NCBI GenBank assembly: GCA_014871385.1
Contig: CM026426.1
Coordinates: forward strand, 110,146,457-110,210,456
DNA length: 64,000 nt
From: Ceratodon purpureus
Lineage: Eukaryota > Streptophyta > Bryopsida > Pseudoditrichales > Ditrichaceae
Direction of reading: 5' to 3'
In this document: piece after piece, positions 7,131 through 29,623 of the stretch
Layout of the letters: every line of letters starts with the position of its first letter
How positions within the stretch are numbered: position 1 is the stretch's first letter
Notes under the pieces: generated by a model
Told to the model about the DNA's origin: nothing
Database searches by the model: none
What the model saw: the letters and a program-made list of their open reading frames with translations, nothing else
Made by a program: the position numbers and the translations under genes

Positions 7131-7890
7131 TGCAACAAAACAGCCTAAACCCTGAACCGTAGGCCAATTTGGCCTGCAACCTGGATTAAGGGTTAAGAAG
7201 AACCACAATGTGACCATAATTATGACAGTGGTGGCTGCTGCTATTATTGTGTTGCTGGCGTCTATCGTCTCTTTGGTTATAATCCGGAGATTGTTCAAAA
7301 GGATCCGTGTCCTTCGTGATATCCAGCGACGTATGTCCACTATCTTTCCTTTTCCGAATCAATCCAACAGGACTTGAGCAGTTGTGGAAGTTGATAAGCC
7401 CTCCTGGATCTGCTACTCATTGAACCGACCAGATTTTGAAGTACGATTTGTTGTGTGGATAGGTACGAGTTCAACATGCGGAAGAATATATTTCGGCTTC
7501 GTGGTTTTGTTTTAGTGCTTCCATCGTGAGCCTCCGGTTTGTTTTTAGAGCGCACTTCTTGGGTTTAAGTGCTAGGATTCTGCGCCAATTGAGTGCTCAT
7601 TTGTACACAGAGGTATTACTCTATCTCAGAGAGGCATTGAAATATTTGTAATTGGATTGCTTTTCAAGGAAGGAAAGAACATCATTTTATAAAATATAAA
7701 TATTTCAATCAGAGTTAAAGTTTCAACCAATGAATCTTCTACAATAGTGAATGTAAAATCTTCTATCATTTACTATTCCAAGAATATATACTATTCAATT
7801 TAATTTTAAATTTTTTTTAATAAAATTATTTGGAGTTTCTAAAAGTCCTTAATATTAATCTAATGACAACGTGCTCAACGGCACGGGTCC
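7131..7890. other. Non-genic stretch
   Basis: Intermediate composition grading into AT-rich sequence. No gene, repeat or regulatory site is supported. Confidence 0.4.
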
Positions 7891-7896
7891 TACTAG

Positions 7897-7902
7897 TATA
7901 TA

Positions 7903-7958
<56 letters not shown>
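7897..7958. repeat. (TA)n microsatellite 1
   Basis: About 60 bases of nearly pure TA dinucleotide repeat with one TG interruption. The open frames across it are simple Tyr-Ile repeats and are not genes. Confidence 0.95.
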
Positions 7959-7964
<6 letters not shown>

Positions 7965-8336
7965 CAAATATTGGTATATGTATATGTAAACATACATAAA
8001 CTATTGAATACATAGCAATATATGTAAATTTACATATACATACAGGCTTACATACACAATTACAAATGGAAAAATATAGTACTCATTAATGTTCATTAAA
8101 CGTAAAGTAGAGAGCATGTTATAAATCAACCACTCTTTAATATTAGAATCTTAGAATAAAAATTCAATTGTTGTACTTCTGTTATAATTTTTTATTTGAA
8201 TATTACATATATATGTTGTGATATATGTAAATAATAATTTATTACCTACATTCTCTATTTGTTTAATAATTATGGAATACAATAGAATTATATATGTGTC
8301 AATATATATATAAACATATATAAACATATACTTACT

Positions 8337-8338
<2 letters not shown>

Positions 8339-8404
<66 letters not shown>
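8339..8404. repeat. (TA)n microsatellite 2
   Basis: An uninterrupted AT dinucleotide array of about 65 bases within sequence already rich in ATATA words. Confidence 0.95.
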
Positions 8405-8407
<3 letters not shown>

Positions 8408-8484
8408 GTAGTCTATATAAAATTATTATATGTTAAAATGTTAATATATAACTCTATATATGTGTGTACTTACATTAATGTGTT

Positions 8485-8492
8485 TATATATA

Positions 8493-8535
<43 letters not shown>
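8485..8535. repeat. (TA)n microsatellite 3
   Basis: A third TA array of about 50 bases. Open frames on both strands here are artefacts of the repeat. Confidence 0.93.
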
Positions 8536-8537
<2 letters not shown>

Positions 8538-10200
8538 GTGTATATTTGCATGTATTTACATATAATATAGTTATTTATTGTTGTAGTAGAATATACAAGA
8601 GATTTAAAAATTTGTTTGAAATAATTTAGGTTGACATGTAGCATAATGGGTCAAGTATATAAAGTAAGAGGTTGAGAAAAGCAATTGATATTAAACTATT
8701 TAAAGAAAGTGAAGTATAGTTATTGAAGTTTCATGCTTATTATCATTTAACATTATTTATAAAAGCATTAGATCACTTTTTGGATCTTATTCTTGTGCAC
8801 ATAGAACAAGATATGAGTATATTCGATAAGATGGGAATCACTTTCACATTGAGCATTGTTATTCTATGTGCTTTTATTATAGTGCAAGCCAAAATAATAG
8901 ATATATATATCAGTTGCTACTCACATGCAATTCAAATATTACATTTTAAAAATTATGATGTATTCGAGGATATAGTATTAAACTAATTTTATGGAAATTC
9001 AATTTTATATAATAATTGAATGTTAAAAAAATTATAAATTACTAAGAAATCAATTTTCTTTGACTTTTATAGAAAAAGATTTTGTTATTTTCGTATTCTT
9101 AAAAATGTTCAAGTTAACTTACAACACATAAGATATTTTACTAGTTTTGCTAGTGAACTATGACTTTTTCAATACATTCCGGTATGATTTTGTAAAAATA
9201 AACGTAAAAGTGCATTTTTGTCAAATTTGTGAAAGCGTGTCTCTTCAACTTCGTGCTTAATTACGTTCACAAGGAATTGCTTGAAATCTCTTGTATATAC
9301 ATAAAGAACACTTTAATTTAAATAATATTGGATTCTCTAATTTCACAATATTTATCATGAAAGTTACATCCATTTATTTGATTGTTGATAGACAATTATA
9401 AATTCAATTAAATTGGAATTACAAAATAAAAAATATTATTCCTGGAATCCTCATCCAAGTAAGCTTTCGATTTCGTTGCAGTTTCGTTGTTACCACGATG
9501 AATATTTCAATATTGGTATTAGGTTTTCATTTACTACTGTGCCTTTTCTTTGACGGAATTGTAGGTTTTCATCGGGAACAACAGGATATCGTTCAAAGGT
9601 GCAGATGTTCATTCGCAACATCAGGTTATCGTTGGCAAGAGCTGCTTGATATTGTTAAAATACTGGAATATCCTTAGATTGCAGACACGGCCAAAAACTA
9701 TGCATTACATTTGTTTTTTTTGGAAGCAATAAAAGAAAATTCATTGCCCGGAAATAGAGTACAAACCCTCCTCAGACAAAAGTCCAGGGCGTAAAGATCA
9801 GGAACAACTATGCATTACATTCATGTCATGCAGCCATGCGTGAATTCTAAAATGAGCATCTTCCTAAGTATTTAATCCAAGATGAATTTTTAATCCAAAT
9901 GCTGCCGTTATTCTTCTGACACAACCTATCTAAATATCGATCAGAACTGCTACAATTAGTAAATAAACCACTTTGTAGAAAGTCGCACCTTACAAGTAGC
10001 ATGTTTTAAAATATGCTACATAGAGGGCTTGTATTCTTTTTTCTGCAATGGAATTCCTTTGTGTCCAAAAAAATAAATACAATAAAAAATGCTACATAGC
10101 GCGCTTAAATTAGAAAGATTTGAGTCCACCAAGATCATAGCATTGCTTGTTTAGATCCCACTGTATTTAGATAAAACGACAAACCTTTATCTCAATGGAC
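8536..10200. other. AT-rich spacer, no gene seen
   Basis: Long AT-rich sequence with scattered short frames, the longest 87 codons at 8723-8986, low in complexity and without a family match. No repeat structure or regulatory element could be defined. Confidence 0.45.
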
Positions 10201-10217
10201 CATTTCTGACTCCGCGA

Positions 10218-10237
10218 ATTAAGGTGTACATCTAAAT
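10218..10237. repeat. 20-bp palindrome copy
   Basis: ATTAAGGTGTACATCTAAAT, preceded by GCGA. It resembles the copy at 10740-10759 including some flanking bases (TCCGNGA just before both), so the two may derive from one duplication. Confidence 0.6.
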
Positions 10238-10454
10238 ATAGTACATTCTCTAGCTTCTGCTCTGAACTCCACATTCTTCATAACTTTAATTGAATACGAT
10301 GAGTTTTCACGTGAAGCACCAGTAGTTAATGGTGCTGGTAAACGGGGGTGGGTAGGCAGTAATTCATTTTGCCTCAGACCCTATCTATCTTCCAAGGACA
10401 GGGCGGGGGAAAATTGATGATCTGCAATGCATGAGTTGTAAGGTTAATTCTCCT

Positions 10455-10975
10455 GTAAAACTTAGATGTAAGTACTTGATGTGTGAATTTCCTATAATCA
10501 TCAGGAATTGGAAGATTAGAAACGACTCTACAAACGAAAGCACTCCCAATTCCCATTAATGTTTTGGATGTTTTTCTTAACGATAAATATTCTGTTATAA
10601 ATTCCTTATTTTTTTCAGTATATTTCAAAATGAAAGTGTTAGTAACACTAATTCGAATTTAAGATACAAATTGCACAAACAACATCCACTCTTTATACTC
10701 AAGGTGGTTTTTAGTAATGGTAAAAATTAGGCTCCGGGAATTAAGGTGCACATCTAAAATTACTATATTTACTTGATGTGTGATTTTCCTAGAATCGTCA
10801 AGAATTGGAAGATTAAAAACGACTCTACAAGCGAAAGCATTCCCAAATCCCATTAATGTTTTGGATGTTTTACTAAACGATAAATATTCGGTTATTAATT
10901 TTATATTCTTTTCAGAATATTTCAAAATGAAACTGTTAGTAACACTATTTCGAGTTTAAGATACAAATTTCATAA
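10455..10975 (-). repeat. Diverged tandem duplication with conserved open frame
   Basis: Two ~200-base units, about 10464-10660 and 10772-10968 (period near 308), align along their length with roughly 85 percent identity by eye. On the minus strand both encode a matching frame of about 52 codons (beginning MKY-S/T-EKN) without stops, though they differ at many positions. Keeping the frame after this divergence is mild evidence of past coding. No family is recognised. It may be a remnant exon duplicated locally. Confidence 0.6.
10740..10759. repeat. 20-bp palindrome copy
   Basis: ATTAAGGTGCACATCTAAAA, lying immediately before the second unit of the tandem duplication. The right half is decayed. 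Confidence 0.55.
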
Positions 10976-11465
10976 ATGTCATCCACTCTTTATGTTCAAG
11001 TAATTTTTAGTAATGGAGTTAAATGAACCTCCGTTTCATGATAGTGCCTTCCATCAAATGGGACTGATGCAACATGTTATTTTTCCATGCAGCCTAAATC
11101 CAGCACTCTCATCGTATCATTAGTCATCATGAATTACCATTACCAGTTTTCACATATCAAAGGATGACTGAAGGAAGTGTATGATTTGCATAATGACTCG
11201 TCGAGGGCATTGTCACATTAATATGATTTTCCAGCATGTAGCCGCCAGTGGAAGCCCACATTTTTGTGATCTGATCATAACTTGTTCCCGCCATGATTTA
11301 GTTATCTCTCCCACGTCATCATTCTGACTCAAAGAACTTCCTGAATGTTCCCAGTGACGACCTTCTACTGTTCCCCACATGTTAATAAACATGTTTGTGC
11401 GTTCCCCTCACCGTTCGAATGACCTTCAGGGTCATCGACCTCCTCCTCTCTGCTGAATCCCTTCC

Positions 11466-11834
11466 TCATTCTCTGTCCTTCTCCTCGTAGCCTTCAGTTA
11501 TCCTCCCCGTCGTCTCGTCTCTCTCTCTCGTGTCTCAATTTGTGTGCTTTGGTGCCGCAGTCTACACCATCTTCGCGATTCGTAAAAAAATATTGTTGTG
11601 TAGAAGTTGGAGTTGAGGTTTTGGAGGTCATAGAGCTGTCATTTGGCGGTGTTGGAGATCGAGCTAGAAGGTGGAGGGTTGTTGTTTTTTGGTGTGCGTG
11701 TGAGATCTGCACATCGTCTCGCAGCTACAACGTACTCTATCTAGGGTTTCTCAGACTTCAGGTGGTTAGTAGTGCACGTTGTTTCGATGTTGGCGAATCG
11801 CTATCAACACCTTGTCATACGCTGCGTATGTCAG
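11466..11834 (+). promoter_or_regulatory. Probable promoter and 5' leader exon of the 13-kb gene
   Basis: Pyrimidine-rich sequence at about 11430-11535 (TCCTCCTCTC..., CGTCTCTCTCTCTC) resembles a plant Y-patch/leader. A telo-box-type AGGGTTT lies at about 11743. The leader would end at a strong donor (GTCAG followed by GTAATT at 11835) and splice to the acceptor GACGCAG at 13012, two bases before the ATG at 13014. No TATA box could be placed with confidence. Confidence 0.4.
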
Positions 11835-13012
11835 GTAATTGTTTTGCACCACATCTTTGTTGAGTAATTTATTGCTGTGATCGTACTGTAACATGAAGTA
11901 GCATCTTCCAGTTAGTTTGTAATGTTGTACTTTTATTTCTGCTTCTGTTGCACTGCAAAGTCTGTGACGTCTTCGTTTTGAACTCCATATCTGTCGTTGG
12001 ATTTGATGAAGTGATGTTTCAGTGGAGCGCTACTTGGATGCGTAATGTATATTGTGGTCTGTAAGTCATTTGCGTGGTCTGCTTACGTAGTCCTGAAACG
12101 TTGTTCGGTACGAAGCCTTGGGTATTCTCAGTAGTCTAATCTGTTCTAGTGTAATTTTGCACATGGTCAAGCGTGTCTGTCTACACCCCCTCAGCTTCAG
12201 TCGTGTTTTTCCTCTACTTTTTGCTGGAAGTTCACATTTTGATAGGTTTTAAATATTGGTCAATGTCTTCGTGTCAATACTGTTTTAGAGTAGTTGTTCA
12301 AGTTGTATAGGAGAGACACATTGTTAGAGGTCAATCGTCCACGCTTAATCCCTACTTGTGCGCAGTAGTGATCGTATCCGTGTCTGTACAGTCCACTGTA
12401 ATTATACGTATACAGCCAATAATACGGTCATCAGGTGTTTCGTCATTTTTGTACTCCATTTTAGCATTGAGGTGATCAGCTTAAATTTATTCCATAAGGT
12501 TTTTAAGCACTCTATTACTGGGTATCCTGAAAACGGAGTTCATTACGGTTTCTAGTGAGCTTCATAATCTGAGATTACCAGATTGGAAGCTTTTTTCAGT
12601 TTCCACGTATAGAATCATTCTCTATGATATTTTCTAAACCTTAGTGATAGCACGGTTTCAGTACCACTCTTTAGATGAGATTTATGTGCCCACCTTATTC
12701 CCAGTCCATATGTCTAGGTTCTCACTTATTTTTCTACGAATAGAGAATGTGGTATTCCTTTGATGATGCATATGTAGTTTGTTGTTATCAGTGTCTACTC
12801 TGATACATTGGGATTGAGGTGCCGAGCTTATTTCAACATCAGATTAGGTTTCGGAATTCGCATATCAAACATGGAACGTTGAGAATTTTGTTTAGGGTTT
12901 AACGTTTAGTTCTCTAACAATGCATTGGTATTCAGGTGCCCTTCTCAAACATTGTACTGAATTTTAATACAGGGTTCTAAATTTCTAAACTGTTTACCTT
13001 TGTGAGACGCAG
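11835..13012 (+). other. Probable 5' leader intron
   Basis: A 1,178-base T-rich stretch between a CAG|GTAATT donor and a GACGCAG acceptor, without coding potential. It holds one palindrome copy (12466-12485) and a second telo-box-type word near 12893. Long leader introns are usual in plant genes. Confidence 0.4.
12466..12485. repeat. 20-bp palindrome copy
   Basis: ATTGAGGTGATCAGCTTAAA, within the presumed leader intron. Confidence 0.6.
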
Positions 13013-13013
13013 G

Positions 13014-14345
13014 ATGACTACAAACGACCCTTTTCTCTTCAGGATTGCTGTTCGGCAGGACGATTGTCCAAGCGATTGCGACACAGATTTTTTTGAGGAG
13101 ATAGAAGAAGTTTGCTTTACGGTTCGAAGCGAGGTGGTGGATACAAGTGCAGAGTGGTTTTTGGCAAGAGAGTCCGCAACGTCACCTACAGCTTCCCTGT
13201 ACGTCAAATTTCTAGAGACAGACAGCCATGTTCCAGTAACAGGCCACGATATAGTATCCTGCAAAGCCACACATCCTTACATATATCTAGTGCTTCAGCG
13301 ACCCGATGGTCTACGGGAGTCCTTATTGATCAAGACTTTGGATTTTGGTCTAAACCACCTTGAATTGCGAAATGCATGGAAGGACACTAATCTAGCCGCA
13401 TTCATTCCTGAGGCTTTCAACAAGGAATCGAACAAGTCTGGCGTCATTCAAACACAAGTGGAGAAGTTGATTACTAAATTGAAGGAGTCCGTCACGAAAA
13501 AGAAGAAAAAGGAGAGGAACAAGAAGAAGGACAAGGGGAGTTCCTCAGGGGTGATAGATCCGAATATAGAACCAGCCATTGTTGATAGTGTACGAGGTGC
13601 TCCTAAGAAGGTGCCTAGAGGCAAGAAGCAGCATAAGAAATCTACAAAGGTGGTGGTGGAACAAACTGTTACCAAGACAACAGATCATGAAGCACTAGAA
13701 GATATTCCTAGTGGCCATAACCTATCTTCGAATCGCAATGCGGACGGTACAGTTGTGGCAGAGGAGTGCATCTGGAGGTTCAAGAACTTCTGAGATGATT
13801 TCGGGAAGTATTACCCTCTCGGGTATGATACTTTGGTGGATATTGATGTGGAACAGGTGGATATTGCACCGTGCAACTACATTGTCCGGGTCCTGGAGAG
13901 TGAGGGTGTTACCGCCATTTATAACACTCTGTTGACGCAGGTTATTCCAAATAAGCAAGTCCTATGTCTCTATCCGCAGGGCTTGACAAAGATCCCAACT
14001 TCATGGGAAGAAATCAAGAATCTCCGATTTTACGCCATCAACAGCCAACACACTGTGAAGGCAGCTCAAAATATCTTGAAGTCCCCCGACATTGATGGTG
14101 CCAGGAAGGACATGCTGCGTACATGGAAAGCGCAGATTGTATGGGATCTTGAAGCTTGGAAGATCCAAGCAATATCGGATTACTATACCCAGTCCAACCA
14201 AATCAATCCGTTCATACCAACATGGGCTTCGAACTTGGTTCATGTGAGGCGGATCTGGGTTGAGATGGGGAAGCCGGAGAGAGTTAGGGGTAACGCGTCT
14301 GACAAGGCAAGCCCCGAGATGTCCAAGAAACGGAACGACCGGAAT
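13014..14345 (+). pseudogene. Exon 1 of ParB-like/methyltransferase-like gene, in-frame TGA
   Basis: The ATG at 13014 follows a splice acceptor. The frame runs 259 codons to TGA at 13791-13793 and then continues open in the same frame to a strong donor (GGAAT followed by GTAAGT at 14346). The first part is globular (~1-150), then a Lys-rich stretch (residues ~165-225, many KKK) suits nuclear localisation. After the stop comes a conserved-looking domain with INSQHTV, which resembles the G-x-H-R-type motif of ParB-like nucleotide-binding domains, followed by a Trp-rich helical part. That assignment is inference. The single TGA, with coding sense on both sides, indicates a disabled copy. Confidence 0.55.
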
Positions 14346-15510
14346 GTAAGTGACGCTCCTGAACCATCTCTTTGAATTGTAATTTACTTGCCACCGATAT
14401 TGAGTTGGTTACCTTAATATGAACTCAGGGCTGACTATGACAGAGTAGTACTGCTTTGAGAGTATATCAAGGCGGTATCCCGAATCTCAATTAAATTTTC
14501 TTTTAAGATGATCACATGTATCGGATGTTTAGAAGAAGATTGCCCTCTAAATCACTAGTAGTCCAATAAGTATCCATTCAAACTTGTAGAAAACATTAAG
14601 ACAAAAGGTTAATATGGAAGTAACAGTTCTGGTAGATCTTGACAGTTCCGTTCTTTCGATGTCCACATTTACGTTTCTTAGAAAATGTAATTGACACCTA
14701 AATCTCCAGCAATAAAGGATGACTCCATTCGACCTTAGACAATATTAAGATGGTATGCTTAATCTGGGAGTTGCAGTTCATGCTAGATATTAGAAGTGTT
14801 TCTTGCGAAAACCAAGTTTACGTGATCTATAAAATACGAATTGCACCTTTATCGCGAGTAGTGAAGATATTATCCATTTCTACTTCAAGACAACATTAAG
14901 ATGGAGAGCCTAATCTTAACGTTACCATGATCAGTAGATTTGTTTTTATTCTTTTATTTGATTATCAGCTTTACTAGATCTATTGAGGACAAGTAAAACC
15001 AAAATGACGAGTAGCAAAGACAGTATCCCTTTGTATTCAACAAGAAAATTAAGAAGACCACCTTAATATGAATGTAAAAGTTCTTGCTGGTCTGTGTATT
15101 TTCCTTTTAGGTCTAATGTTTTCGCGAATTAGTTATTCATACTTTCTCTTACTTGACAACAATTCGTAACAATTGATCAAGTATTGTGAGTGAATATTGT
15201 TGCACGAGTTTACAAAAAGGATTTACCTAAAGCTTTGCTTTGGACGAGTTTGTGGGATTCGTACTTCTTTCTTGATCTAACTGGTTATATCCTACTCCAT
15301 TACAAACTACTCTAGATTTTACCGTATTAGGTGTGTACCCTGATACTTAAGAGGGGAAATAATCATCAGTCAACATTAAGGTGTCCAGCTTAATTCAATT
15401 ATTGTCAATCAATTGTTTATTATTCTCTTGGGTTGACCAGTTTCGCATAATGTTATTGGACTGACATACCCTTCTCCCTCCCGCAAAGATTCTTGAATTC
15501 TATGATATAG
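14346..15510 (+). other. Intron 1, dense in the 20-bp palindrome
   Basis: A 1,165-base non-coding interval from a GTAAGT donor to an acceptor near 15510 (GATATAG). It contains six palindrome copies (14399, 14466 degenerate, 14744, 14895, 15048, 15375), about one per 190 bases, and weaker copies at 14502 and about 14594. The exact acceptor is uncertain. Confidence 0.5.
14399..15394. repeat. Cluster of 20-bp palindromes in intron 1
   Basis: Copies: ATTGAGTTGGTTACCTTAAT (14399-14418), ATCAAGGCGGTATCCCGAAT (14466-14485, decayed), ATTAAGATGGTATGCTTAAT (14744-14763), ATTAAGATGGAGAGCCTAAT (14895-14914), ATTAAGAAGACCACCTTAAT (15048-15067) and ATTAAGGTGTCCAGCTTAAT (15375-15394). Outer hexamers ATTAAG and CTTAAT are nearly invariant and the central eight bases vary, while length stays fixed at 20. 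Flanks are not shared between copies, so they are not copies of a longer repeat. Confidence 0.85.
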
Positions 15511-16881
15511 ACACTGTCAAGTGTGCGGTCAAAGAAGGACATTGCAGAGAGAGATGACAAACTCATCAAGTGGACTTTCAACGAAGTCAGATTTGAGTGG
15601 ACGTTAGCGAGATCCAGCGACGACTGCTGGAAGAAGTGGGAGCGATTTTTTACGAAGCACGTCAAAGGAGAACTGATTTGCCTTGAGCTTGGACACCAGA
15701 TTAAGGATACACCAAACTTCAAGAGCAACATGAAGATAATTGCCCCACTAACAAAGAACTGATTCAAATGCGTAGAGTCCCTTACCGAACGAGAAATTGA
15801 CAAGCTCGTCACGTATCTCTTGAACGAGAAGACTGATGATGACAAGCCCATCCCTGTATACCCCAAGGTAATCCCCTTTACAGTGAAAGGCGCTTCGAAG
15901 AGTCGCAGCATTCTCTCAGCTCTAGAGTGGGGAAACAGGAAGAGAACAAAGAGGCATGTCATTAGGGAATTCAATCGTTACACTAAGGGTGAATTTGGAT
16001 TGATTGAAACTACGGCAGTGAAGGGACTAGATGAAGCTCACGATGTACACCGCAAGAACTAGAGGACGTTCAAGAAGGTCTACATGATCTCTTCGAAGAC
16101 GATGGCAAATGTGGTGGAGTCAGCAGGGGAGAAATTCTTTAACAATTTTGAGGGAAGGAATAGACTCGACAAAGGATTCTTACCCGCACCGTTCATTGAG
16201 TCAATTCGAGCGGTTGTCGAAACGAAATCCGAAGATGCCCTCACTATCGATGTCGGTGCTTGCATTCTGGTAAAAAATGAAATCACAACACCAGGAGGCG
16301 AGGTGGTAAAGAAGGGGAATTTCACCATAGTAGGGGATATGCAAAAAGGGGACATTAGAGAGAGGACTAATTCTGAATGGGTGGCATTCATTGATTTTTG
16401 CAATGTAGAAGGTGTCGTACCTGGTTCCGACGTAGAGCATCCTTTCTGGGAGTCATTTGTCAAGAAGCTTGAGGCATTTAAGATTCCTAGATGGTCCGAG
16501 ACACCGGTTTGGATCTGGATCGCTGACAATTCACGGAAAGAGCAGGTTCAGGAGTTATATAAAAGGAAGCTGAAAACAACTCATTTGAAACTGGTCGAGG
16601 CATACTACCACCCGGACGCTATGGAAGGATTTAGAAGCGAGAAAAAGGTTAAGGGGAATGTGGTGACAATTTATTACATTGTGAAGGAACAGTGGGTCGT
16701 GCCGGCATTGACTAATGTCTTCAGGTGTCCGAAGTTGAAGGTGTACACGGAAGGTAAATACCGGTACTACACAGGAGAACTCCGGATGGAAACTTATATT
16801 AGGATCCTTCAGGAAGTATCCGGAGCATTCAGGTCGGTTTTCAACATCTACGGCGGGCAAAAGCTAATGCTTGCGTGTCAG
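15511..16881 (+). pseudogene. Exon 2, methyltransferase-like domain, two in-frame stops
   Basis: One frame spans the exon but is cut by TGA at 15760-15762 and TAG at 16060-16062. The distal part looks like a Rossmann-type DNA methyltransferase: a hydrophobic strand ending FIDFCN sits where N6-adenine enzymes have D/N-PP-Y/F/W, a helix and strand with PVWIWIAD follow, and a later YIRILQEV...NIYGGQKLMLACQ resembles the SAM-binding motif region near the C-terminus of such enzymes. If the alignment is right the catalytic Pro-Pro-aromatic is gone. The donor (GTGTCAG followed by GTAAAC at 16882) is strong. Family assignment is by pattern memory only. Confidence 0.5.
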
Positions 16882-17393
16882 GTAAACATCCTAATCAGAT
16901 TCATAGAGATATATAGATTTTCTACTTGAATCCTCTTTTGCGATTGTGTCCACCAGAGTGTTATTATGTTGCATGACTTATAAGAGATGATTGTACATGT
17001 ATGATGCAATTGCCACATTTTTATATCTGCGTTTTTGTAAATAATAGGCAACGTATAAATGCAAACTGAATTAAGGTGGTCTCCTTAATTCATTGGAAAT
17101 ATTGGACATTGTCGTACAGCCTAAGACCGTCAGCTGACTACTTTGATAGATTCTATGTACATTACGTAGTCCTTACAGTAGATGAAACTATTTTAAAAAC
17201 AGTTATACTTGTGTTTGGATGACCTTGATTAAGATGATCACCTGAATCTTGAATATGTTATGTCTTTTTTGATACGATATCCTTTTGAATCAGACGGTGT
17301 GTAATTGAATATGTCCATTTGGAGTTTAAACCAAGGAATTCCTAGTCAGTCACTTGCAATGACAAAGTCTAAGTATTCGTATGTTGTTCGCAG
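16882..17393 (+). other. Intron 2 with two palindromes
   Basis: A 512-base intron between CAG|GTAAAC and TTCGCAG. Palindrome copies ATTAAGGTGGTCTCCTTAAT (17070-17089, perfect outer arms) and ATTAAGATGATCACCTGAAT (17228-17247) lie inside. No other feature seen. Confidence 0.65.
17070..17247. repeat. Two 20-bp palindromes in intron 2
   Basis: The two copies are 158 bases apart. The first is one of the best-preserved in the window (nine of ten base pairs self-complementary). Confidence 0.8.
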
Positions 17394-19040
17394 ATGCTGA
17401 AAATGAATGTGTATACCTTTTGTAACCAAGACTCCTTGGACGATCTCCTATCCCTCAAGTCAAAGGCTGCAACCATGAATCACCAGGACTTTTTAGCTCC
17501 TCAGCGTTTAGGTAATCCTGGAACGATCGTTGCTTTGGGTGCTACTAGCAGTGCTCAACAAGAGCCAAGTAGTGGACAAGTAGAACCTAGTACTGGAGGG
17601 ACACCGTCTTCAGATTTGGGTGACCGAGTTGTACAGAGTGGATCTTTTACAGCACGTACAGATGCTTCTTCGGAAGAGATTATGGAATCTGGTGTTCCGA
17701 TCAATCAATCTTTTCGGAAACGTCCACATGGAGGGGATTCTGATGACTTTGTACCCAACAAAAACGACTTCATCTCTCCAACGAGTCACGGGAGTTCTCC
17801 TACGTTCAACCAGTCTGGTGGTCCCTCTGATCAGCGTGAGACTAGGACGCACTTTACTAAAAAACCCCGTGATAGCGCTGTTGAAGATGATCCCGACATT
17901 CAGCTCTTGCAGAAGTTGATAAAGAAGGCAGAGTTAGAAGTGAAGCTCAAAGAGCTACAGGTGAAGCTACAGCCAGCTGCCCCACTTGGACTTCCGCGTG
18001 GTGGATTCGGGCCGCCCTTGTATGCGTCTTACAACTACCCCTATCCCACAGGTCCTTACGGGGAAAGCACTGATACTCAGATGGTTGATGATTTTGGTTA
18101 TGATGAGTGCGGGACAATGAATCCACCACAGTATATACGTGGAAATTCTTACCAGTTTGATGGAAGAAGAGATGCTATCCGTTTTCAGACGCACTCTCAA
18201 AACCACAATCAACTTGCGCTTACGAACACGTCGGTGGTTCCTCTGAGACAACAAACTCCAATCATTGTCGAACCTATGGATACTGAGCATCAAGTAGGGT
18301 CAGAGGAAGATAGAGATCAACACCTGGATCATCCGATGGACTATACGGTCACCAATGTGGAGCAGGTGCTGGAGAATCAGCATGTCAATACGTGCACTAT
18401 TGTGGAGGAAAATACGAACATCGTGATGGAGCAGCAGGTTGCGACATCTATGGAGCCATCACTAAACAAGCCAGACCAGATTAAGGAGGTCTCCTTAATT
18501 CCTCCTTATCCAACAATCCTAGAACATGAATCTGCGACCGTCCTAACCGAAGGTCTCGGAAATCTAGAAGTGAGTGCGATTCCCTCTACAGACACTGAGA
18601 TGAACGACGACATGATTGAGGGGTCGATCTTAATCCTATCAAGTGCAGATTCCGTAGATCGAACTGCAAAGACTTCTCAGATATCAGTGCCAACTCCAGA
18701 TCCAAACTCGGTATCACCCGCTTGCACAGAGACTGAGTCTGAGCAGATTAAGAAGACAAGCTTAATTACAGAAGTAGTCCATAACGAAGGGTTGGATGAT
18801 GTGAGGGATCATCAGGTTGCCTCCATAGATGAAGCGTTGTGTGGAGAATCTGGGAGTCCTTTGAATTCTCCCATTGAACCTGATGTTATGACAAGCGAGA
18901 ACTCTAGTGACATTTTGTTGCATCCTTCAGAAAATGTCGCTGAGGAAGCTATCCCGGTTGTGGATGATGATGATGATAGAGAAGAGGGTATTGGAAAGGA
19001 TGCAGCGGATATTACTGGACCCCGGGTGAGAGTACACTAG
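17394..19040 (+). CDS. Exon 3, long disordered tail of the methyltransferase-like gene
   Basis: A phase-0 exon after a TTCGCAG acceptor, open for 548 codons to TAG at 19038-19040. The first ~15 residues would complete the methyltransferase-like fold. Then comes a low-complexity Ser/Thr/Gln/Glu-rich sequence with a basic patch (RKRPHG, ~residue 110), a short charged helix rich in Leu/Lys (~170-195), a Pro/Tyr-rich piece (~200-245) and an acidic C-terminus with a run of Asp. This is the only undamaged exon of the gene. Three 20-bp palindromes lie inside it, all in the same reading frame. The tail's function is unknown. Confidence 0.5.
   Translation: MLKMNVYTFCNQDSLDDLLSLKSKAATMNHQDFLAPQRLGNPGTIVALGATSSAQQEPSSGQVEPSTGGTPSSDLGDRVVQSGSFTARTDASSEEIMESGVPINQSFRKRPHGGDSDDFVPNKNDFISPTSHGSSPTFNQSGGPSDQRETRTHFTKKPRDSAVEDDPDIQLLQKLIKKAELEVKLKELQVKLQPAAPLGLPRGGFGPPLYASYNYPYPTGPYGESTDTQMVDDFGYDECGTMNPPQYIRGNSYQFDGRRDAIRFQTHSQNHNQLALTNTSVVPLRQQTPIIVEPMDTEHQVGSEEDRDQHLDHPMDYTVTNVEQVLENQHVNTCTIVEENTNIVMEQQVATSMEPSLNKPDQIKEVSLIPPYPTILEHESATVLTEGLGNLEVSAIPSTDTEMNDDMIEGSILILSSADSVDRTAKTSQISVPTPDPNSVSPACTETESEQIKKTSLITEVVHNEGLDDVRDHQVASIDEALCGESGSPLNSPIEPDVMTSENSSDILLHPSENVAEEAIPVVDDDDDREEGIGKDAADITGPRVRVH
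18480..18766. repeat. Three 20-bp palindromes inside an exon
   Basis: ATTAAGGAGGTCTCCTTAAT (18480-18499), ATTGAGGGGTCGATCTTAAT (18615-18634) and ATTAAGAAGACAAGCTTAAT (18747-18766) are spaced 135 and 132 bases apart. All start at the same codon phase and encode I-(K/E)-x-x-x-L-I. The regular spacing and shared phase suggest either ancient internal duplication of the tail or exonisation of motif-bearing sequence. Confidence 0.8.
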
Positions 19041-19810
19041 AGGTAGTGCAGTTTTGGCAAAACTGTATTGTACCATTGGGACCTTTGAGTACTTAATTGT
19101 ACAATAAGTACTCTACCTTACTCAATCTGAGCCGTTCAGATTCCATACAAGAGGAGGGGTTTGGCGATTTAGATGAGCCAATCAAAATAGCGTGCTCTGA
19201 CGCTAATGATTCCCTTCGATGGAGCTCCATATGGGCCAGCTGCTCTCGACTTGACACGTGGCTGAGTTTAAATACATAGACTGGCGGGAGTTGATGTCCA
19301 GCCTCGGAGGCAGGATCTAAAGTTGATTGAATCACACAGCATCCTAGTTCAACTCAGACAACGTTGCCCATCATCTATGTAATGTCGAATCATCCTGCTC
19401 TTGAAAATTGTATATTTGTTAAGCGTATGAGAGCTATGGAGTTGTCTGGACTTCAGGATTTTTTCAGATGAACTTCAAGTGAAGCCTAGTTCAGTCAAGT
19501 GATTGGTTTGTTGAAGGGCCTTCCAAAATACTATACAAATTATTGTAATTTAAAATATAGTATGACTCTAATATGATCCTCTTTTTAATACGATCATAAG
19601 ATATAAATTGAAAAAAATGAATATTGATTATTTATACATTTGTTATTTAAAGATTATAGAGTGTTCATAATTGAGCATCTTGAATATGAACTAGAAAAAT
19701 GCCCTAGAAAGTACTGAATAGAGTAAGATTATTTTTTGTTTTTTACATTTTTCTGTCAATATTTACTTTAAGGCTTTAATAATAGAAGGTGCAATTTTAA
19801 AAATTAAGAT
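19041..19810. other. Downstream spacer
   Basis: Sequence after the tail exon. It has one CACGTG (19255-19260) and otherwise nothing recognisable. AT content rises toward 19500. A polyadenylation region for the upstream gene is expected here but no clear signal was assigned. Confidence 0.35.
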
Positions 19811-20760
19811 ATGAACATCATTTCTTCCCCTAATTTATTTTTTTCATTTCATCCACTATTTTCATTTATCCCTTCCACTACCACTTTTTGCTCTCATTTT
19901 CATCCTAATTATAATTTTTATTTTTATTTTTCCATTTCTATTTTTATTTTTCATTTATCCCTTTTACTCGCACTTTTCTTCTTCATTCACATCTCCATTG
20001 TCTTCCTCTTTTTTTTTCTTCCATTTACTCAACTATTTTCATTTACCCCTTCTACTCCCACTATTCACTCTCAATTGCATCTCCATTATAATCTTTGTTT
20101 GACATTTTTTTTTCCGATTTCCATTTTAATTTTTCATTTATCCCTCCCACTTGCACTTCTCTTCTTCATTTACATCTCCATTGTCTTCCTTTTGTTTGTT
20201 TTTTCTTTTTCATTTCCTCCACTGTTTTCATTCATCAAGCTTCCACTCCCAATGTTCTCTCTCAATTTCATCCCCATTATAACCTTGTTTTTTTTTACAT
20301 TTCTATTTTTATTTTTCACTTATCCCTTCCACTTGTGGAAAAAAAAGGAAGAAAAATAAATAAGCTTGAAGGATAAATTCCAAAAACATAAAGCTATATG
20401 AAATGTTTAAATAGAAAAAGGAAAAAAGGAATAAAAAATTAAGATTTGAAGGAAGAATAATAAAGGAAAATAAAAGAATTATAAAAAGGGGAGGAGAAAA
20501 ATATGAAATATTAAAATACGGTTCATGGGAAAAGCTATTGAGGAAGAAAAACAAATAAAAGAAGGGCAAGTAAAGAAAGTGAAAAATATAAGAAATATTT
20601 AAAGGAAGGAAGGGAAAGAAAGGATAAAAACTTAATAAATGGAAGAATAATAAAAGAAGAGGAAAATATGAAGCAATCAAATGATATAAATAATAAGGGG
20701 GAGGGAAAAAAAAAAAACTGGAGGGGAAAAAAAGGATAAATAAATGTTGAAGGATGACAG
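19811..20760. repeat. Polypyrimidine tract switching to polypurine
   Basis: From about 19820 to 20335 the plus strand is almost all C/T with recurring words such as TTCATTTATCCCTTCCACT. A unit near 19945 (cell of about 180 bases ending in CTCCATTGTCTTCC) recurs near 20127. At about 20336, just after CTTCCACTTGTGGAA, the same strand becomes almost all A/G until about 20750. Frames on both strands are low-complexity Phe/Ser or Lys/Glu repeats, not genes. Such mirror-like homopurine/homopyrimidine blocks can adopt triplex or foldback structures. Confidence 0.75.
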
Positions 20761-21750
20761 AATAAGTTGTTGAAAGTTTGGTGTAATAGAGAAATGAAAG
20801 TGAAGTTTAAGAGTTTTAATCATTATCGACTAATAAAGCAATTTTGAAATAGATTAATGTGCGATAAAGGTAGATTTGTTCATACGAATGTTTTTTTGGA
20901 ATAAGACATGAGAGGGTAAAAATTAGCATGGCCGTTTTCATGATGCAAAATAGGGTATAATAGATGAACATCATTTCTAAACCCCTTTAAATAAATTATG
21001 AAATACAATACTTATCATATGTTGGAGGTAAACTCGTACGTATGTGTTTCTTTTTAGTTTTGGGAAAAAATTAAGAACATGGGTATTAGCATGTTGGAAA
21101 AAGAAAAATATGGGAAATTATATTATATATATGTAGTTCATTTTTTAATTTTATAATTTCATGTAGATGTATTTTAAGTGCTTTTGATGAAAGGAAAATA
21201 AATTTAAACATTCACTTATACGTTTCAACATACAAGCAATTTATTTTATTTTTTATTAGCGTTCTTGGGGATTTATTTGAGAATGGTAACTAAGTAAATT
21301 AGTTGGGCCCTAGGATAGGAGAGAAATAGCAGCTGGGAGTGCACAATTGAGGTGTCAAATAATGCTCAAGGCGGCTACGGTGTGGTATTAGATGTTCATG
21401 ACGGCGAGCAAACGGGCGGGAATTAATGTAGAGGGTTTAGTGACTGGTGGTCACCAAATACGGGGTTTAAGGTGTGAGAGAGTTACTGGTGACCGCCAGT
21501 GTGAAGGATGAGCGAGGCACTAGATGACCGGTGGTCGGGGGTGAGCATTGTCTCGCACCTCTCTCGAGCTGGGGTCGACGGCAGTGTGCAGTGTGCTCCA
21601 CCGGAGGTGTGATGGAAGGAGAAGCCTTAGCGAATTGCAATGGATCGGCTGGGCTTGCATGTATTCCACTATGGATTTAGGGGGAGGCGATGCTTAGCTT
21701 GGATTGTGGGGTTCCTTTTGGGGTTTTAATTTTCGTTGGGTCGGTGACTC
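20761..21750. other. Spacer before coiled-coil gene 1
   Basis: AT-rich to about 21300, then increasingly GC-rich. Short words such as CTGGTGGTCACC, ACTGGTGACCGCCAGT and GACCGGTGGTC (21440-21540) repeat a TGGT/ACCG theme, but no defined repeat unit could be drawn. No gene seen. Confidence 0.35.
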
Positions 21751-21804
21751 TAAGGGACATTGGAGTGGACGTGGGCGGGGCTTGTGTGGAGGGGTGAAAG
21801 AGTA

Positions 21805-23694
21805 ATGGAGCGAAGCCAGAGTGCGCGCTCTGGGGACACATCCAGTGCGCGGAAGGGGAGAGCACTTGGAGCGCGAGAGAGGAGGAGCCGCGGAGTGATG
21901 AGTGATGATGACGACGTCGGGAGGGAGGGTCCGCGGAAGAGGCTGCGGGGAGGAACAGGCAGAGGAGGGGCATCTGGTGAGGAGCCTGCTACCGAGGAAT
22001 TGCCAAAGAAAGGTGGCGCTGGGGAACGAGGTCGAAGTCGCGGCCGAGAAGAGGTGGAGGGAGGAGCTGCAAAGCAAGTGTCGAAGAAGGCTTCAGGTGC
22101 GAGACGAGGTCGAGGTGATAGCCGGGACGAGCTGGAAGGAGAAGCTGGAGCGGAAGCAAAGTCCACAGCAAAGAAGAAAGGAAAGGGAAATGTGAGGTCT
22201 GAGAAGGCCTTCACGTGCCTGGAAGACGTCGACGACAAGATTTCGAGGCTGAAGAAGCCTCCGCGGGAATTGAAGAGGGCGGACTTTCAGGCTGAATATG
22301 GACTCCCCAACGAGGGAGACAATCCCCATCACTTCCTTCGAGGCACGGTCTCCTCCGACACTGTGCGCAGGTTGTTTGGTAAGCCTACGGAGATGGTGGT
22401 CGGAGCGAGTTCTATTGGCAGGGTTGCGAAGTCCTGGAGGTTGTGGATAGGGTCAAGTATCTACACCCAATTCTGTATCAACATGGGGAGGAGGAGAATC
22501 CGAACCTGATCACGGTGAGGTTTGCCGAAGGTATCGCATTAGAGTATGAGGAAGGTGGTGGTCGTGTCAATTGGTGTGCTTTCGGGGAGGAGACAAACAA
22601 GCGACAGAGGGGCCGATCTACGTTGGACAGGACAAAGCTTGAGGAGCTCAGGAAGTCTATTGCGGACTCTAGGTGCACTGAGGGGAAGAAGAAGGTCGAT
22701 GTCCGAGGTAAGGAGTGGCGAGGAATTAAGGTCAAACCTGGCTGGGAGGGAAAGGTCGAGCAAGGGGATGCGGTGAGGGTGGGGGGTCGTGGGCCACCGG
22801 GTGAGTCGAAGGGTGGGCTGGAATCCGCCATGGCATCGGGTGTGTGCTTGCAGGAGGATACCGGTTTGCGAGGATAGAGTGCTGGGAGGTTGGCAAAGGG
22901 GGAAGTGGAGGAGCGGCTGCAAAATTTGGAGGGTCTGATGCAAGCTGTTTACTTGGAGCAGAAGTACAAGCGGGAGCTGAAGAAGGAGGCTGGTCAACGG
23001 CTTGACGGCGCCATTTGGAAGAGTAAGCAAAGTGAATGGGGCATGGGCACATTGAAGAAACAAGAGGAGCAGAAGACGGCGCTGATTAGAGCGCTGGAAG
23101 AGCAAGGCCAGGATGTGTACAAGGAGAACATAAAGATGGAGGGAATTCAAGAGCAGTTGCCAGAGGAGAAGGTCAAGGTCGCGGCCGCTAAAGGGGAGCT
23201 GGAGACCGCCGAAGCTGAGATCCAGGCATTGACAAGAGAATTGGAGTCGGGCCAGTTGCAGCTTGATGCCTTCGCAGCCGAGAAGTACCAGTTGAAGCAA
23301 GGGAGGAGTACTCTGAGCTTTTCTCCAAGTCCAATGGTGTATGCGCCCGAGGATCCAATATGTGGAGCGTTTGATTTTGCAGATGAGACCAGCTTCATCA
23401 GGATTACCGCTTGCTGCTTGTGTTCCTTCCCATTCCCGCAGTATGACATGGTAGTAACCTCGTGTAGACACTTGTATCATCCTTTCTGTACTTCAGTGGT
23501 CTTTGTATGTAGCTGCAAGTGCGTGGCCATAGGATGCGGGGAGATTTGTCACCCGGAATGGCATCGGAGTTTTAGTTGGGGAGAGCCACATGCAGAATTG
23601 GTGGAGAAGGCTAGGATGCTTGGAGTAGCCGAAGAAAGGCGGAGACTAATGGAGGAGAGAACAGAGCAAGCTATGGCGAAGGTGCCATCTGATG
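21805..23694 (+). pseudogene. Coiled-coil/RING-like gene copy 1, first long exon, disrupted
   Basis: The likely ATG is at 21805. Residues ~1-135 are Arg/Lys/Gly/Glu-rich and disordered; then comes a globular segment (ADFQAEYGLPN..., ~22260-22410). The frame shifts near 22410-22440, continues at about 22425 and meets TAG at 22875-22877, then stays open through a long charged coiled coil (~22890-23300) into a Cys/His cluster (CCLC...CRHLYHPFC...CSCKC...CGEICHPEWH, ~23405-23560) like a variant RING or zinc ribbon. The exon ends at a strong donor (GATG followed by GTAAGT at 23695). The layout matches copy 2 at 42.6-44.5 kb. Role unknown, possibly part of a multicopy transposon-like family. Confidence 0.5.
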
Positions 23695-24717
23695 GTAAGT
23701 TCATCTAAATTTGTGCTAGTATTCTGGATATGTGCTTTGCAATGTTGATTCTGGATATGTGCTTTGTAGGAATTTTAGTGTTTATGTACTATGGAGTCCG
23801 CGAATGTAGTATGCGGTTGTTCCAGTTTAGGTGAATTCTAGAAGTTTGTTATAGAAAGTAGTGAAAGTATATTGTTGGATCGTAAGGTTGTACACTCTAT
23901 ACGTGATGTGGTTGCTAGCTTTCACCTGATTGTGATCTGAGACAACTTAGACTTGCACAGTGTATATGAAGTCCAGGTTCATTAACAGCATGTGTCTGAA
24001 CATGTATATTAGTGTCGAAGTCTAAATGCAATATGTGTACAAGAAGTTCCTTCACTGAATTCCATGAATTGTTGTGTATTGCATAGTACTTGGTGAACAA
24101 CTGTTTGGCGCTGGAAATGAAATGTTTGTATGTTAGTGTCAAAGTCTAAATCCAGTATGTGTACAAGAAGTTCCTTCACTGAATTCCATGAATTGTTGTG
24201 TATTGCATAGTACTTGGTGAACAACTGTTTGGCGCTGGAAATGAAATGTTTGTATGTTAGTGTCAAAGTCTAAATCGAGTACGTGTACAAGAAGTTGCTT
24301 CACTGAATTCCAGTATATTATTGTGTATTGCATAGTACTCGATGATTTTTGTTAGGCGTTGGAAATGTCATATTTGTATATTAGGCCTAATCTTCAGGTA
24401 CATGCAGCTACTTAGAGCAAGTATTTTATGTACTCCATATGACATAGTGCTTGAAATGTACTTGCGGTGCTGTACGCAGACGACATTGTACTTGACAGAG
24501 CTACAACAGGTATTTCTTGTCTTTATTTTACTTGGTACTAGAAGTCCTACGTGGTAGTCATAGAGGTCATAGAGTACATTTAGAATTGCGGACTTGTACA
24601 AATGGTCCACCAGTTCAAATCCAATAGGTAGTGATAGTACTGGTTCATTTGTGCTAGTCGACTGCAATTACATTCGGTACCATATTCTATATACTCTAAC
24701 AGGATGTGTGGTGGCAG
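23695..24717 (+). other. Intron of coiled-coil gene 1
   Basis: A donor at 23695 and an acceptor at 24717 (GTGGTGGCAG) join in phase (G split as G|GT). The intron is filled partly by a 124-bp tandem repeat and is rich in the tetranucleotide GTAC. Confidence 0.6.
24011..24384. repeat. Tandem repeat, 124 bp x 3
   Basis: Units begin AGTGTC(G/A)AAGTCTAAAT at 24011, 24135 and 24259. Copies 1 and 2 differ at only a few positions and copy 3 is more diverged with indels near its end. Each unit carries GTGTACAAGAAG and TAGTACT. Minus-strand frames here are read through the repeat and are not genes. Confidence 0.92.
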
Positions 24718-26359
24718 GTTCTAGCCTAAGGTTTGCATCACCTCAGAAGGCCGTCAACAATGCAAGACGAACACTCGAAGGGGAGACAAGCCAGCCAGCA
24801 TGGTCTGGAGGCGCTCTAGAGGATTTTCATGGAGTGCCGCAACGGGTTGTCAGGGGCGACAACATTAAATCTAGAGACCAACCAATGCTGGAGAGGCCAG
24901 TGGAGAAGGTGGTGATGGCATGTCTTTCGGATGGTGCTCATCTTCAGGGACGTGAACCAGATCTGGAGTCGGGAGACGATTCTGGTTTTGACGAAGAGGA
25001 CAACAACACCAAGATTACCCCCCTACGTTCTAGCTCCGGCACTACCGTCGAGGAAGGGGATAGTGATACTTCGGAGAGCACTGATGCTCAGTCGGGGAAG
25101 GCTTCAGACCAAACTGGAGACGGTGATCCTTCACTTGACATAAGCTTGCCACCGCCAGAAACCTCAGTCCATGTGGAAGGAGTGGAGCTCGAGGGTCTGT
25201 CAAGTCCATGTCAAGGAAGGGGCAGCACTGATAAAGGAGGGAGTGTTGGCGTCGCTGCAGGGGCAAGGAAGAGGGATGAAGGACTGAGCGTCGTTGGAAG
25301 TGGAAAGAAGCAGGGTGAGGCTGCAGGGATTACTGGGAGCGGGAGGAAGGAGGAGAAGGAGGATTCGGGGAGAGCTAAGGAAGGGGATGGAGGGGCGGTG
25401 CTGAAGAAGGGAGGCGCAGCAGGGAGCGGGAGGAAGAAGGGGAAGGAGGATTCGGGGACAGCTGAGGAAGGGGACGGTGCTGTTGCGAAGGAGAAGGGTG
25501 GCGCAGCAGGGAGCGAGAGGAAGAAGGGGAAGGAGGATTCGGGGACAGCTGAGGAAGGGGACCGTGCTGTAGCGAAGGAGAAGGGAACGCCAACGGAAAA
25601 GGAGAAGGAGGTCTCGCCGCAGCCCGCGAGGAAGGAGACAACCAAGCCTGAGTCGCAATGCGTGCCGGGACGCAAGGGCAAGTTGCTTTGGGGAGAATAT
25701 GGTAAGGATGGTGGAGGAGCCACGGCCTCGGGTTTCGTGGATACCTTGGTGCAAGTGGAGGCTGCAGCCAAGTTCATGGAGGTAACAAGGAGGAAGGCCG
25801 AGGGGGGGGGGTAAAGGAGAAGGAGGATGTAGTGAGCAGTGGCGTAGGCGCGGGTACCAAGGATGTGCGAGCCTCAAGGTAGGTGGAGGTACAGGGTGGC
25901 GCAATGGAAGGAGAAGACGGACAATCGAAGGATATTGGAGCGGCGGAAGGAGGGCCCGGCGTGACCGATGCTGAAGTAGCGGAAGGAGAAGTAGAAGGGC
26001 TGTCGAAGTCTAATTTGCCCCGGTCTCCATTCCAGTTGAGAGCAAAGAGAGCAACGGGTCCAATTGTGGACGATGACTCAGGGCCGGGACTTGAGGCTGC
26101 GATAGAGAATGTCTATTCAGCTGACAAGACCACGTACAAGGAGCTGGCCGAGATTGTTGGGGTGAGTGGAAGTCCTATTGCTGTCCCTGAAACGAATGTG
26201 CGGACGAGAGCACGCACCGCCAAGGAGGCAGAGCAAGCAGCAGAGGAATCCCCGGCATCAATCAGAGCTAAGGGTCGTAAGAATGAGGGGAGAAAGAATG
26301 ATAAGGTCAAGGGCGACAAGGTAGGTGGCGCAGTCTCACAGAAACGGCGGAGAGGGTAG
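24718..26359 (+). pseudogene. Coiled-coil/RING-like gene copy 1, tail exon
   Basis: The exon begins in phase after GTGGCAG. It is a hydrophilic, low-complexity tail rich in Gly, Glu, Lys and Ser, with three ~29-residue repeats. A run of ten G (25802-25811) is one G short of keeping frame, giving a TAA at 25812; in the shifted frame TAG at 25880-25882 follows, although AAG|GTAGGT there could instead be a donor. The frame then stays open to TAG at 26357-26359 and ends in a basic KKRRRG-like sequence that suits nuclear localisation. No enzymatic domain seen. Confidence 0.5.
25340..25605 (+). repeat. Coding minisatellite, ~87 bp x 3
   Basis: Three adjoining units encode variants of GS(G/E)RKKGKEDSGTAEEGD followed by AVAKEKG-type ends. 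The last two are nearly identical at the DNA level, showing recent slippage or unequal exchange within the tail exon. Confidence 0.85.
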
Positions 26360-26640
26360 CCACTTAGAATGAGGGCTTGAGCAATCTGTAGGATTGCTTT
26401 TAGTGGATTGTTTTTTTGGTTTTTGATCTATTGAGCTGCGGTAGAGTGCTTGTGTAGAACGGATTTGCAGGTCAATTAATATATCTTACCTCATCACTGA
26501 GGTCTCCCTAACAAGGCCGAGACAAGGCTTCTGTATTTAATTTTCCATGCAGATGTGTTATTTGCGATCCTTCGTGATTTCTTTGCATTTGTGCTTTTGT
26601 TAGTCTTTCCAAGTAGCCTTGGAACTTTTCTTTTCTATTT
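26360..26640. other. Spacer between coiled-coil gene 1 and SET gene
   Basis: T-rich spacer with no supported feature. It could hold the 3' end of one gene and the promoter or last 5' intron of the next. Confidence 0.35.
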
Positions 26641-26648
26641 TTAAGAGT

Positions 26649-27755: not shown

Positions 27756-27904
27756 CTCCACATATGTGTTGTGATATCCTTCTGTAAAGCAGAACCACAC
27801 TCGCACATTTTTCTAGACTTTCAACTGCAAGCCTTTTGTTTATGCATAAAAGGGATTAATCTTGAATAATTTTTCTGCCGATATACTGTTTGTACTACCA
27901 AAGA

Positions 27905-27997
27905 TATGTTCAGAGCATACTCTTTGTACATTTTGTTATACTACACGTACATATCCAGATTATACTCTTTATACATTTTGATATTCTACACGTACAT
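27905..27997. repeat. ~50-bp repeats around the CCGG insertion
   Basis: TACTCTTTGTACATTTTG...TACACGTACAT (from about 27918) is followed by a second copy (from about 27962). A third partial copy (TATCCAGAATATACTCTTTGTACATTTT) starts at about 29624, immediately beyond the 1.6-kb insertion. The insertion therefore landed inside a small tandem array. Confidence 0.7.
27993..27997. repeat. Target-site duplication, left (TACAT)
   Basis: TACAT directly precedes TGTAGCACG and matches TACAT at 29619-29623 directly after TTCCCACA. Confidence 0.6.
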
Positions 27998-28368: not shown

Positions 28369-28460
28369 TTAAAGTGGCTGGATTCTCCACCGTCCCGTGA
28401 CTTAAAGTGGCTGGACACCCACTGCCCCGTAACTTAAAGTGGCTAGACACCCACTGGTCC
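28369..28460. repeat. Short tandem repeat TTTAAAGTGGCTGGA-, x3
   Basis: Three ~37-base units of the form (C/A)TTAAAGTGGCT(G/A)GACACCCACTG occur in a row inside the CCGG-rich element. Confidence 0.8.
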
Positions 28461-29618: not shown

Positions 29619-29623
29619 TACAT
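29619..29623. repeat. Target-site duplication, right (TACAT)
   Basis: Right-hand copy of the 5-bp duplication flanking the CCGG-rich insertion. Confidence 0.6.

Follow-up and report, generated by a model that had tools for sequence, protein, structure and literature searches.

A dispersed 20-bp palindrome in a giant DNA transposon family of Ceratodon purpureus as a putative element-specific label

We analyzed a 64,000-nucleotide stretch of the Ceratodon purpureus genome (GenBank assembly GCA_014871385.1, contig CM026426.1, here C6, positions 110146457-110210456; hereafter the window), for which a preliminary description had reported about 20 copies of a 20-bp palindrome in the introns and spacers of certain loci. 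The palindromes lie in part of one copy of a giant DNA transposon (positions 1-40865, its left end outside the window), and this element holds all 26 of the sites recognized here. It carries a plus-strand gene, the exons of which we delineated from the relatives P0001-P0007 (all seven matches of the similarity searches, 61-97% identical). Exon 1, the 'ParB-like' gene of the preliminary description, spans 13014-14346 (limits drawn by eye) and has one in-frame stop, exon 2 spans 15511-16882 and has two, and both are free of sites. The first part of exon 3 (17394-19023) is open, and its second part (35353-35674, 88% identical to P0003) lies beyond a site-free 16.3-kb foreign insertion at 19024-35342, which has imperfect inverted repeats (GGGTGRRAGTAYRCTAG) and is absent from a copy of the element on contig C2 and from P0003, a relative that runs on continuously from window position 19025 to 35353. 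An FCP1/NIF-like phosphatase exon follows at 36192-36662 (PF03031, 20.1 bits, just under the cut-off of 21.8), and a second NIF-like phosphatase open reading frame (ORF) at 38656-39219 (PF03031, E 1.1e-6), both on the plus strand; the longer ORF of the C2 copy passes the PF03031 cut-off with 22.5 bits. The 'ParB' and 'FCP1' loci that had been kept apart are, judging from these alignments, one gene split by the insertion, and the 'certain loci' come down to a single mobile element that carries every site.

The palindrome ATTAAGRTGRTCAYCTTAAT was found at 16 window places with up to three mismatches, against 0.03 expected from 100 first-order Markov sequences; at up to 0, 1, 2, 3 and 4 mismatches the counts were 1, 5, 9, 16 and 22, against Markov means of 0, 0, 0, 0.03 and 0.28. 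With a symmetric matrix, for which 25 sites served as the training set (22 from the earlier positions; site 12930 was left out), 26 window sites were picked at 15.5 bits or more, the next-best place scoring 11.2 bits. The dyad consensus is RR-ATT[A/C/G]AG-RWG-NN-CWY-CT[T/C/G]AAT-YY. All but one of the 23 positions reported earlier scored 18.1-29.5 bits, while 14466 reached only 7.5 bits and is not a site; those at 588, 1189, 12813 and 12930 are additional.

Four sites lie near the left edge of the window, at 588-607 (23.2 bits), 1189-1208 (25.1 bits), 1626-1645 (25.2 bits) and 1716-1735 (24.9 bits). Two are upstream of the gene, at 10218-10237 (22.8 bits) and, beside an 88% direct repeat, at 10740-10759 (19.1 bits), and three are in the presumed 5' leader or its intron, at 12466-12485 (23.5 bits), 12813-12832 (a weak site, 15.5 bits) and 12930-12949 (19.0 bits). 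Intron 1 holds sites at 14399-14418 (18.9 bits) and 15375-15394 (27.5 bits) and, in an old array of about 150-bp units, at 14744-14763 (22.6 bits), 14895-14914 (18.2 bits) and 15048-15067 (28.1 bits). Intron 2 holds 17070-17089 (28.9 bits) and 17228-17247 (27.7 bits), and intron 3 holds 35768-35787 (20.9 bits). Three sites are in coding exon 3, at 18480-18499 (27.2 bits, read as IKEVSLI), 18615-18634 (18.1 bits, IEGSILI) and 18747-18766 (22.6 bits, IKKTSLI). The remaining sites are at 37222-37241 (21.6 bits), 37380-37399 (21.4 bits), 37733-37752 (25.2 bits, at the tip of a long inverted repeat and in a 101-bp array), 37834-37853 (27.2 bits, at the centre of a 228-bp near-palindrome), 37935-37954 (29.5 bits, in the 101-bp array) and 39275-39294 (19.1 bits).

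We searched the genome (362.5 Mb, 151 contigs) with two forms of the palindrome. ATTAAGN8CTTAAT occurred at 708 places and its reversed control at 71, whereas ATTAAGRWGNNCWYCTTAAT occurred at 361 places and its reversed control at none. Among the first 50 places listed for each pattern, 44 of the former (contigs C1-C3) and 48 of the latter (contigs C2-C6) lay within 60 kb of a match to exon 1, that is, in 2.3% of the genome. The six ATTAAGN8CTTAAT places off the family all had cores unfit for the motif, as judged by eye. Three other copies of the element contained 36 (C2, 6.2 Mb), 32 (C2, 24.6 Mb) and 24 (C3, 12.7 Mb) matrix sites, all of them inside the ends seen, and the 10-kb left flank of the C2 6.2-Mb copy held none. 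Because window sites had been used to train the matrix, we also made a matrix-free count, which gave 96 sites in 80.6 kb of element against one for the reversed control, and one in 18.9 kb outside. The palindrome is nearly exclusive to the family among the places mapped. The genome-wide density near these gene families, on which the preliminary description had staked its palindrome, bore it out, with enrichment over the reversed control and clustering near the family.

Window blocks 1-5479, 7966-19026 and 35353-40865 match the C2 copy (C2:6.19-6.23 Mb) at 90-97%, and that copy is without the insertion at 19.0-35.3 kb. Since it matches window positions 1-5479 too, this one element also includes the sites at 0.6-1.7 kb. 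The C2 copy ends in 25-bp inverted repeats, AACAC[C/G/T]ATATT[A/C]ATTAA[T/A]TTGGGAA, flanked on both sides by ATTT. A diverged copy (C2:24.63-24.66 Mb) has ends of the same kind flanked by AAAA, and one end each was seen in the window (the right terminal inverted repeat, 40841-40865, minus strand) and in the copy at C3:12.70 Mb. The two copies with both ends seen are 40.2 kb (including 10 kb of N) and 28.6 kb long. Terminal inverted repeats, as expected of class II elements, were thus found in four copies, on both sides in two of them and at the one end seen in the others; the ATTT and AAAA flanks, identical within each copy, are a candidate 4-bp target duplication, although they are A/T-rich and come from two copies only. 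From these ends and alignments, the site-bearing DNA is best described as one giant DNA transposon family. No recognizable transposase domain was found in the element ORFs scanned (eight from the C2 copy with its flank, and window ORFs). An earlier pair of candidate ends, 10169/62509, gave way to the 25-bp repeats after it proved to be at chance level (at least one such pair in 4 of 40 Markov pairs and in 6 of 30 other pieces). Window positions 5480-7965 have no match in the C2 copy and are probably another insertion.

Genome-wide, 72 loci have between them 102 matches to exon 1; 54 of the loci are on C6, a contig of at least 110 Mb in a genome of 362 Mb, and eight loci on contigs C2, C3, C5, C6 and C12 are 99% identical to P0004. 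The concentration on one contig may reflect the giant sex chromosome of C. purpureus. Exon 1 identity to P0004 is 99% in the C2 6.2-Mb copy, 74% in the C2 24.6-Mb copy and 63% in the C3 12.7-Mb copy. The introns of different subfamilies gave no blastn alignment with one another, yet the sites are kept with the same consensus; site positions thus appear to turn over between subfamilies while the word is conserved. Near its left end the C2 copy carries a 638-aa minus-strand ORF with a DUF7869 domain (E 1.1e-43), then a domainless 332-aa ORF and then the gene seen in the window. The DUF7869 ORF (L001:5260-7173 in the C2 copy; 79% DNA identity to the diverged copy) is a candidate transposase or label-binding protein. 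A left-end region without long ORFs (L001:1107-3354) is 84% identical between two subfamilies, the exons 1-2 of which are only 71-73% identical in DNA, and this may reflect strong conservation or recent exchange. Beyond DUF7869 and the phosphatase part, the proteins of the family were unmatched in the domain libraries tried, and literature searches with the motif strings and with the name DUF7869 returned no paper.

The placement of the sites relative to coding sequence is uneven. Of the 22 sites within the gene of the window, 19 fall outside coding sequence, at roughly equal exon and non-exon lengths (p 5e-4, with exon limits drawn by eye), and exons 1 and 2 are site-free in all four copies (that of the window and the three others). 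The earlier placement in introns and spacers holds for these 19 but not for the three within coding exon 3. The tail of exon 3 has three sites each in the window and the first C2 copy; the C3 copy has five, which sit in 84-87 bp in-frame repeats, and the codon offset is always 0. That offset is nearly forced, because in the other two offsets 19 and 23 of the 26 sites would contain stops, compared with 7 of 26 in this one. The three exonic window sites fitted the motif better than synonymous recodings did (p about 0.002 each, or 0.002, 0.003 and 0.002 in order of position; jointly 0 of 20,000), in a test whose codon use included the sites themselves. We rejected a peptide-level cause of the exonic copies, as the codons fit the DNA motif beyond what the peptide demands.

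The flanks of the sites had been described as unrelated, which does not hold for two groups. Positions 14594 (decayed), 14744, 14895 and 15048 are units of the old array of about 150 bp, in which, with 14 positions compared, the best pair reached z 10.8 and four others z 3.6-5.2; no array unit was matched at z above 3 by any of 10 non-array positions, and one other pair, 15375/12813, reached z 3.2. The sites at 37733, 37834 and 37935 are in 101-bp repeats. Ten of 18 neighbouring site pairs are spaced 90-160 bp apart, against 2.8 expected, which is partly due to duplication. Positions 37686-37960 form nested inverted repeats with sites at the hairpin tips, and these nearly perfect hairpins (-62.6 and -57.7 kcal/mol with RNA parameters) may give double-stranded RNA if transcribed. 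The suggestion that each 20-bp copy is the footprint of a tiny mobile unit was abandoned: flanking duplications of at least 3 bp were found at 1, 3 and 1 of 26 sites, against 1.1-1.3 expected, and it is the giant mobile element that carries the sites.

We asked whether the two halves of the palindrome pair as they would in a stem. Pairing in the window cores was 48, against 49.6 after shuffling the halves, and the pooled value for 96 sites of three copies was 202 against 196.7 (p 0.25), so the 'self-complementary core' reported earlier pairs no better than shuffled halves. Complementarity did not extend into the flanks beyond chance (flank positions 3-10, 59 vs 52.5, p 0.16), and an Rfam search gave no match. 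We rejected a kept stem, as no compensatory arm changes beyond chance were seen. Since the halves covary little, the palindrome is likely a dyad site in duplex DNA rather than a stem. The earlier idea of a binding site for a dimeric protein fits this picture, with its dyad consensus, fixed length, little covariation of the halves and DNA-level fit in coding sequence, and is retained here as a sequence-based proposal.

Two further elements lie in the window. The insertion at 19024-35342 is a second large transposon inserted in the first, and it has an ORF with a SET domain at 27261-27755 (E 5.4e-8), preceded by a region that looks pre-SET-like by eye. A non-coding part of it, 28025-29594, is dense in TCCGGA: 20 of the 27 TCCGGA words of the window are in the insertion, 17 of them here, and they may be a different label, the insertion's own. 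Positions 44825-62300 are a Ty3-type long terminal repeat retrotransposon with 1,273-bp end repeats, which is recent because these repeats are 99.8% identical; a further, unassigned 1,062-aa ORF lies in its region at 48247-51435.

We propose, with even confidence, that the palindrome labels this element family specifically, that a dimeric protein, probably encoded by the element itself, binds the label, and that the label works like the VANC motifs of Arabidopsis. The protein, most likely the element's own product, would recognize the label in duplex DNA at 24-36 sites per copy of these giant transposons. By acting over the full extent of the copies of its element, it would alter their chromatin state in the way that VANC proteins act on VANDAL elements. 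The proposal draws on the label itself, its near-exclusive presence in the family at the mapped places, its turnover, its partial spread in tandem, its avoidance of exons 1 and 2 and its fit in exon 3, whereas the dimeric binder, its encoding by the element and the chromatin effect are parts that we infer from sequence. To our knowledge, transposons that tag their own copies by means of a short, dispersed motif are known from few systems. If the proposal is true, this would be an independent case of self-marking, in a giant transposon and with a long dyad that reaches into coding sequence, and the label would allow tests of how an element distinguishes itself from its host. As the reversed control had no match genome-wide, the label is specific enough to serve as bait for the binder and as a marker for copies.

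Several points weigh against this proposal. No DNA-binding family passed its cut-off in the element ORFs scanned, which gave only DUF7869 and NIF domains. The placement near the family rests on the first 50 places per pattern, the remaining ones having been counted, and two of the 50 ATTAAGRWGNNCWYCTTAAT places, C3:23546138 and C6:2656394, are off the family. Relatives were scored with a matrix trained on window sites, and under a looser matrix-free rule the window to the right of the element gave five matches against three for the reversed control and the C2 left flank gave one. Position 7 pairs slightly more often than after shuffling (57 against 46.9; p 0.014 for one of ten positions) and the centre less often (22 against 33.8), so the halves are not fully independent. 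Several sites of the window copy, which is decayed, differ from those of the C2 copy. The second C2 copy has a single coding site, in an ORF a stop away from the one that matches P0003, and P0003 itself, being 96% identical, says little by keeping the exonic peptides; one of the searches for relatives scored only the best 7,996 candidates. The identities of sites against flanks are weak evidence, as unrelated 40-mers reach 67%, and in the flank comparison (27 positions, best 25 scores) a few non-neighbour pairs scored 26-31 against a 99.9% null of 25.2. In the VANC work (PMC5735166) the probes from coding regions were devoid of the motif, whereas some of the sites described here are coding.

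The main rival, which we regard as possible but unlikely, is a role in transposition or maintenance, in which a transposase or accessory protein would bind the dyads to synapse, excise or replicate the 30-40 kb element, as TNPA does in CACTA elements; the sites may serve transposition or replication instead of labelling, which also counts against our proposal. The family has inverted repeats and candidate 4-bp target duplications, and binding of an element-encoded protein to repeated motifs is known for CACTA elements (PMC2613891). Against this role, the sites are spread all through the element instead of being clustered at its termini (in the C2 copy the outermost ones lie 0.7 kb in from the left end and 1.5 kb in from the right), and some are in the coding tail.

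A doubtful alternative is that the element's own large product, with its perhaps ParB-like part and FCP1-type phosphatase exons, assembles on the dyads along the element as a self-addressed parS-like compartment that shields it from silencing. Relatives of exon 1 contain GQHTV.AA and NQSN[QK]INPFKP, which we take to be ParB-box-like, although profiles did not detect the kinship. Profile searches found no ParB or methyltransferase family for the exon parts (E up to 0.001), for P0001, P0003, P0004 and P0006 (E up to 5) or for four exon-1 relatives (E up to 10), and profile searches of PDB gave no match in the test of ParB kinship. The best profile matches of the four relatives were DUF4603 (0.021) and the MADF DNA-binding domain (0.035), with MADF and DUF1840 under their cut-offs, and the structure models (mean pLDDT, the predicted local distance difference test, of 32 and 33) were too poor for fold comparison. 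A link of a ParB protein to the sites is speculative, and a distant relation may exist.

Slightly more doubtful still is a host factor that recognizes and silences, or is recruited to, the family. In its favour, the same dyad is kept across subfamilies whose introns do not align; however, a label read by the host only should be lost by the element rather than multiplied by tandem duplication, and few mapped places are off the family. We consider it improbable that the sites are targets of a nuclease or of recombination, with the long inverted repeats at 37.7 kb as products of fold-back repair: the hairpins with a site at the tip and the 228-bp near-palindrome speak for it, but the sites taken together show no extended flank complementarity and many intact sites are present per copy. 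We similarly disfavour a binder-free by-product of satellite-like duplication, for although several arrays contain sites, the same consensus occurs in three diverged subfamilies, the exonic sites stand out in the synonymous test and the non-array positions are unlike the array units. A conserved RNA hairpin in transcripts is the least credible, since apart from the hairpins at 37.7 kb the core pairing is not above shuffles, self-complementarity at the centre is below them and Rfam gave no match. An ordinary host regulon was dropped after the genome-wide search, and a prokaryotic or viral operator was dropped as well (the exact core word had no match in viral and genome contig collections, where by our own estimate few were expected by chance, and there were no related coding loci and no phage match).

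Among known systems, ParB-parS has palindromic sites near the gene of the binder, and the sites described here are likewise palindromic and near the gene of a possible binder; the site differs from parS, and profile searches recognized no ParB domain in the gene, with a distant relation possible. The subterminal repeats of CACTA elements, which TNPA-like proteins bind, are also alike, in that PMC2613891 describes many copies of a short motif, several of them in palindromic arrangement, presumably bound by an element protein and specific to subfamilies. They differ in being confined near the ends, whereas the sites here occur throughout the element, the ends of which are not those of CACTA. VANC proteins bind their motifs and remove DNA methylation. 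The non-coding parts of VANDAL21 contain a 9-base motif that VANC21 recognizes and that has been spread by tandem repeats (PMC5735166), and the targets of VANC21 and VANC6 resemble the present sites as short motifs in introns and non-coding parts of one transposon family, in diverging tandem repeats (PMC5735166 and PMC10398659). The palindrome, too, is over-represented in its family, and regions that contain it form diverging tandem repeats. VANC motifs are 8-9 bases long and are not called palindromic in the text of PMC5735166, in contrast to the 20-24 bp dyad here, which also reaches into a coding tail. In the giant transposon no gene of VANC or Mutator-like type was recognized; a Mutator-like transposase (VANA) was found neither in 20 of the 31 window ORFs of at least 150 aa nor in eight ORFs from the C2 copy with its flank. 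We do not claim membership in VANDAL/VANC for the giant transposon, but propose by analogy that its label may work on the same principle.

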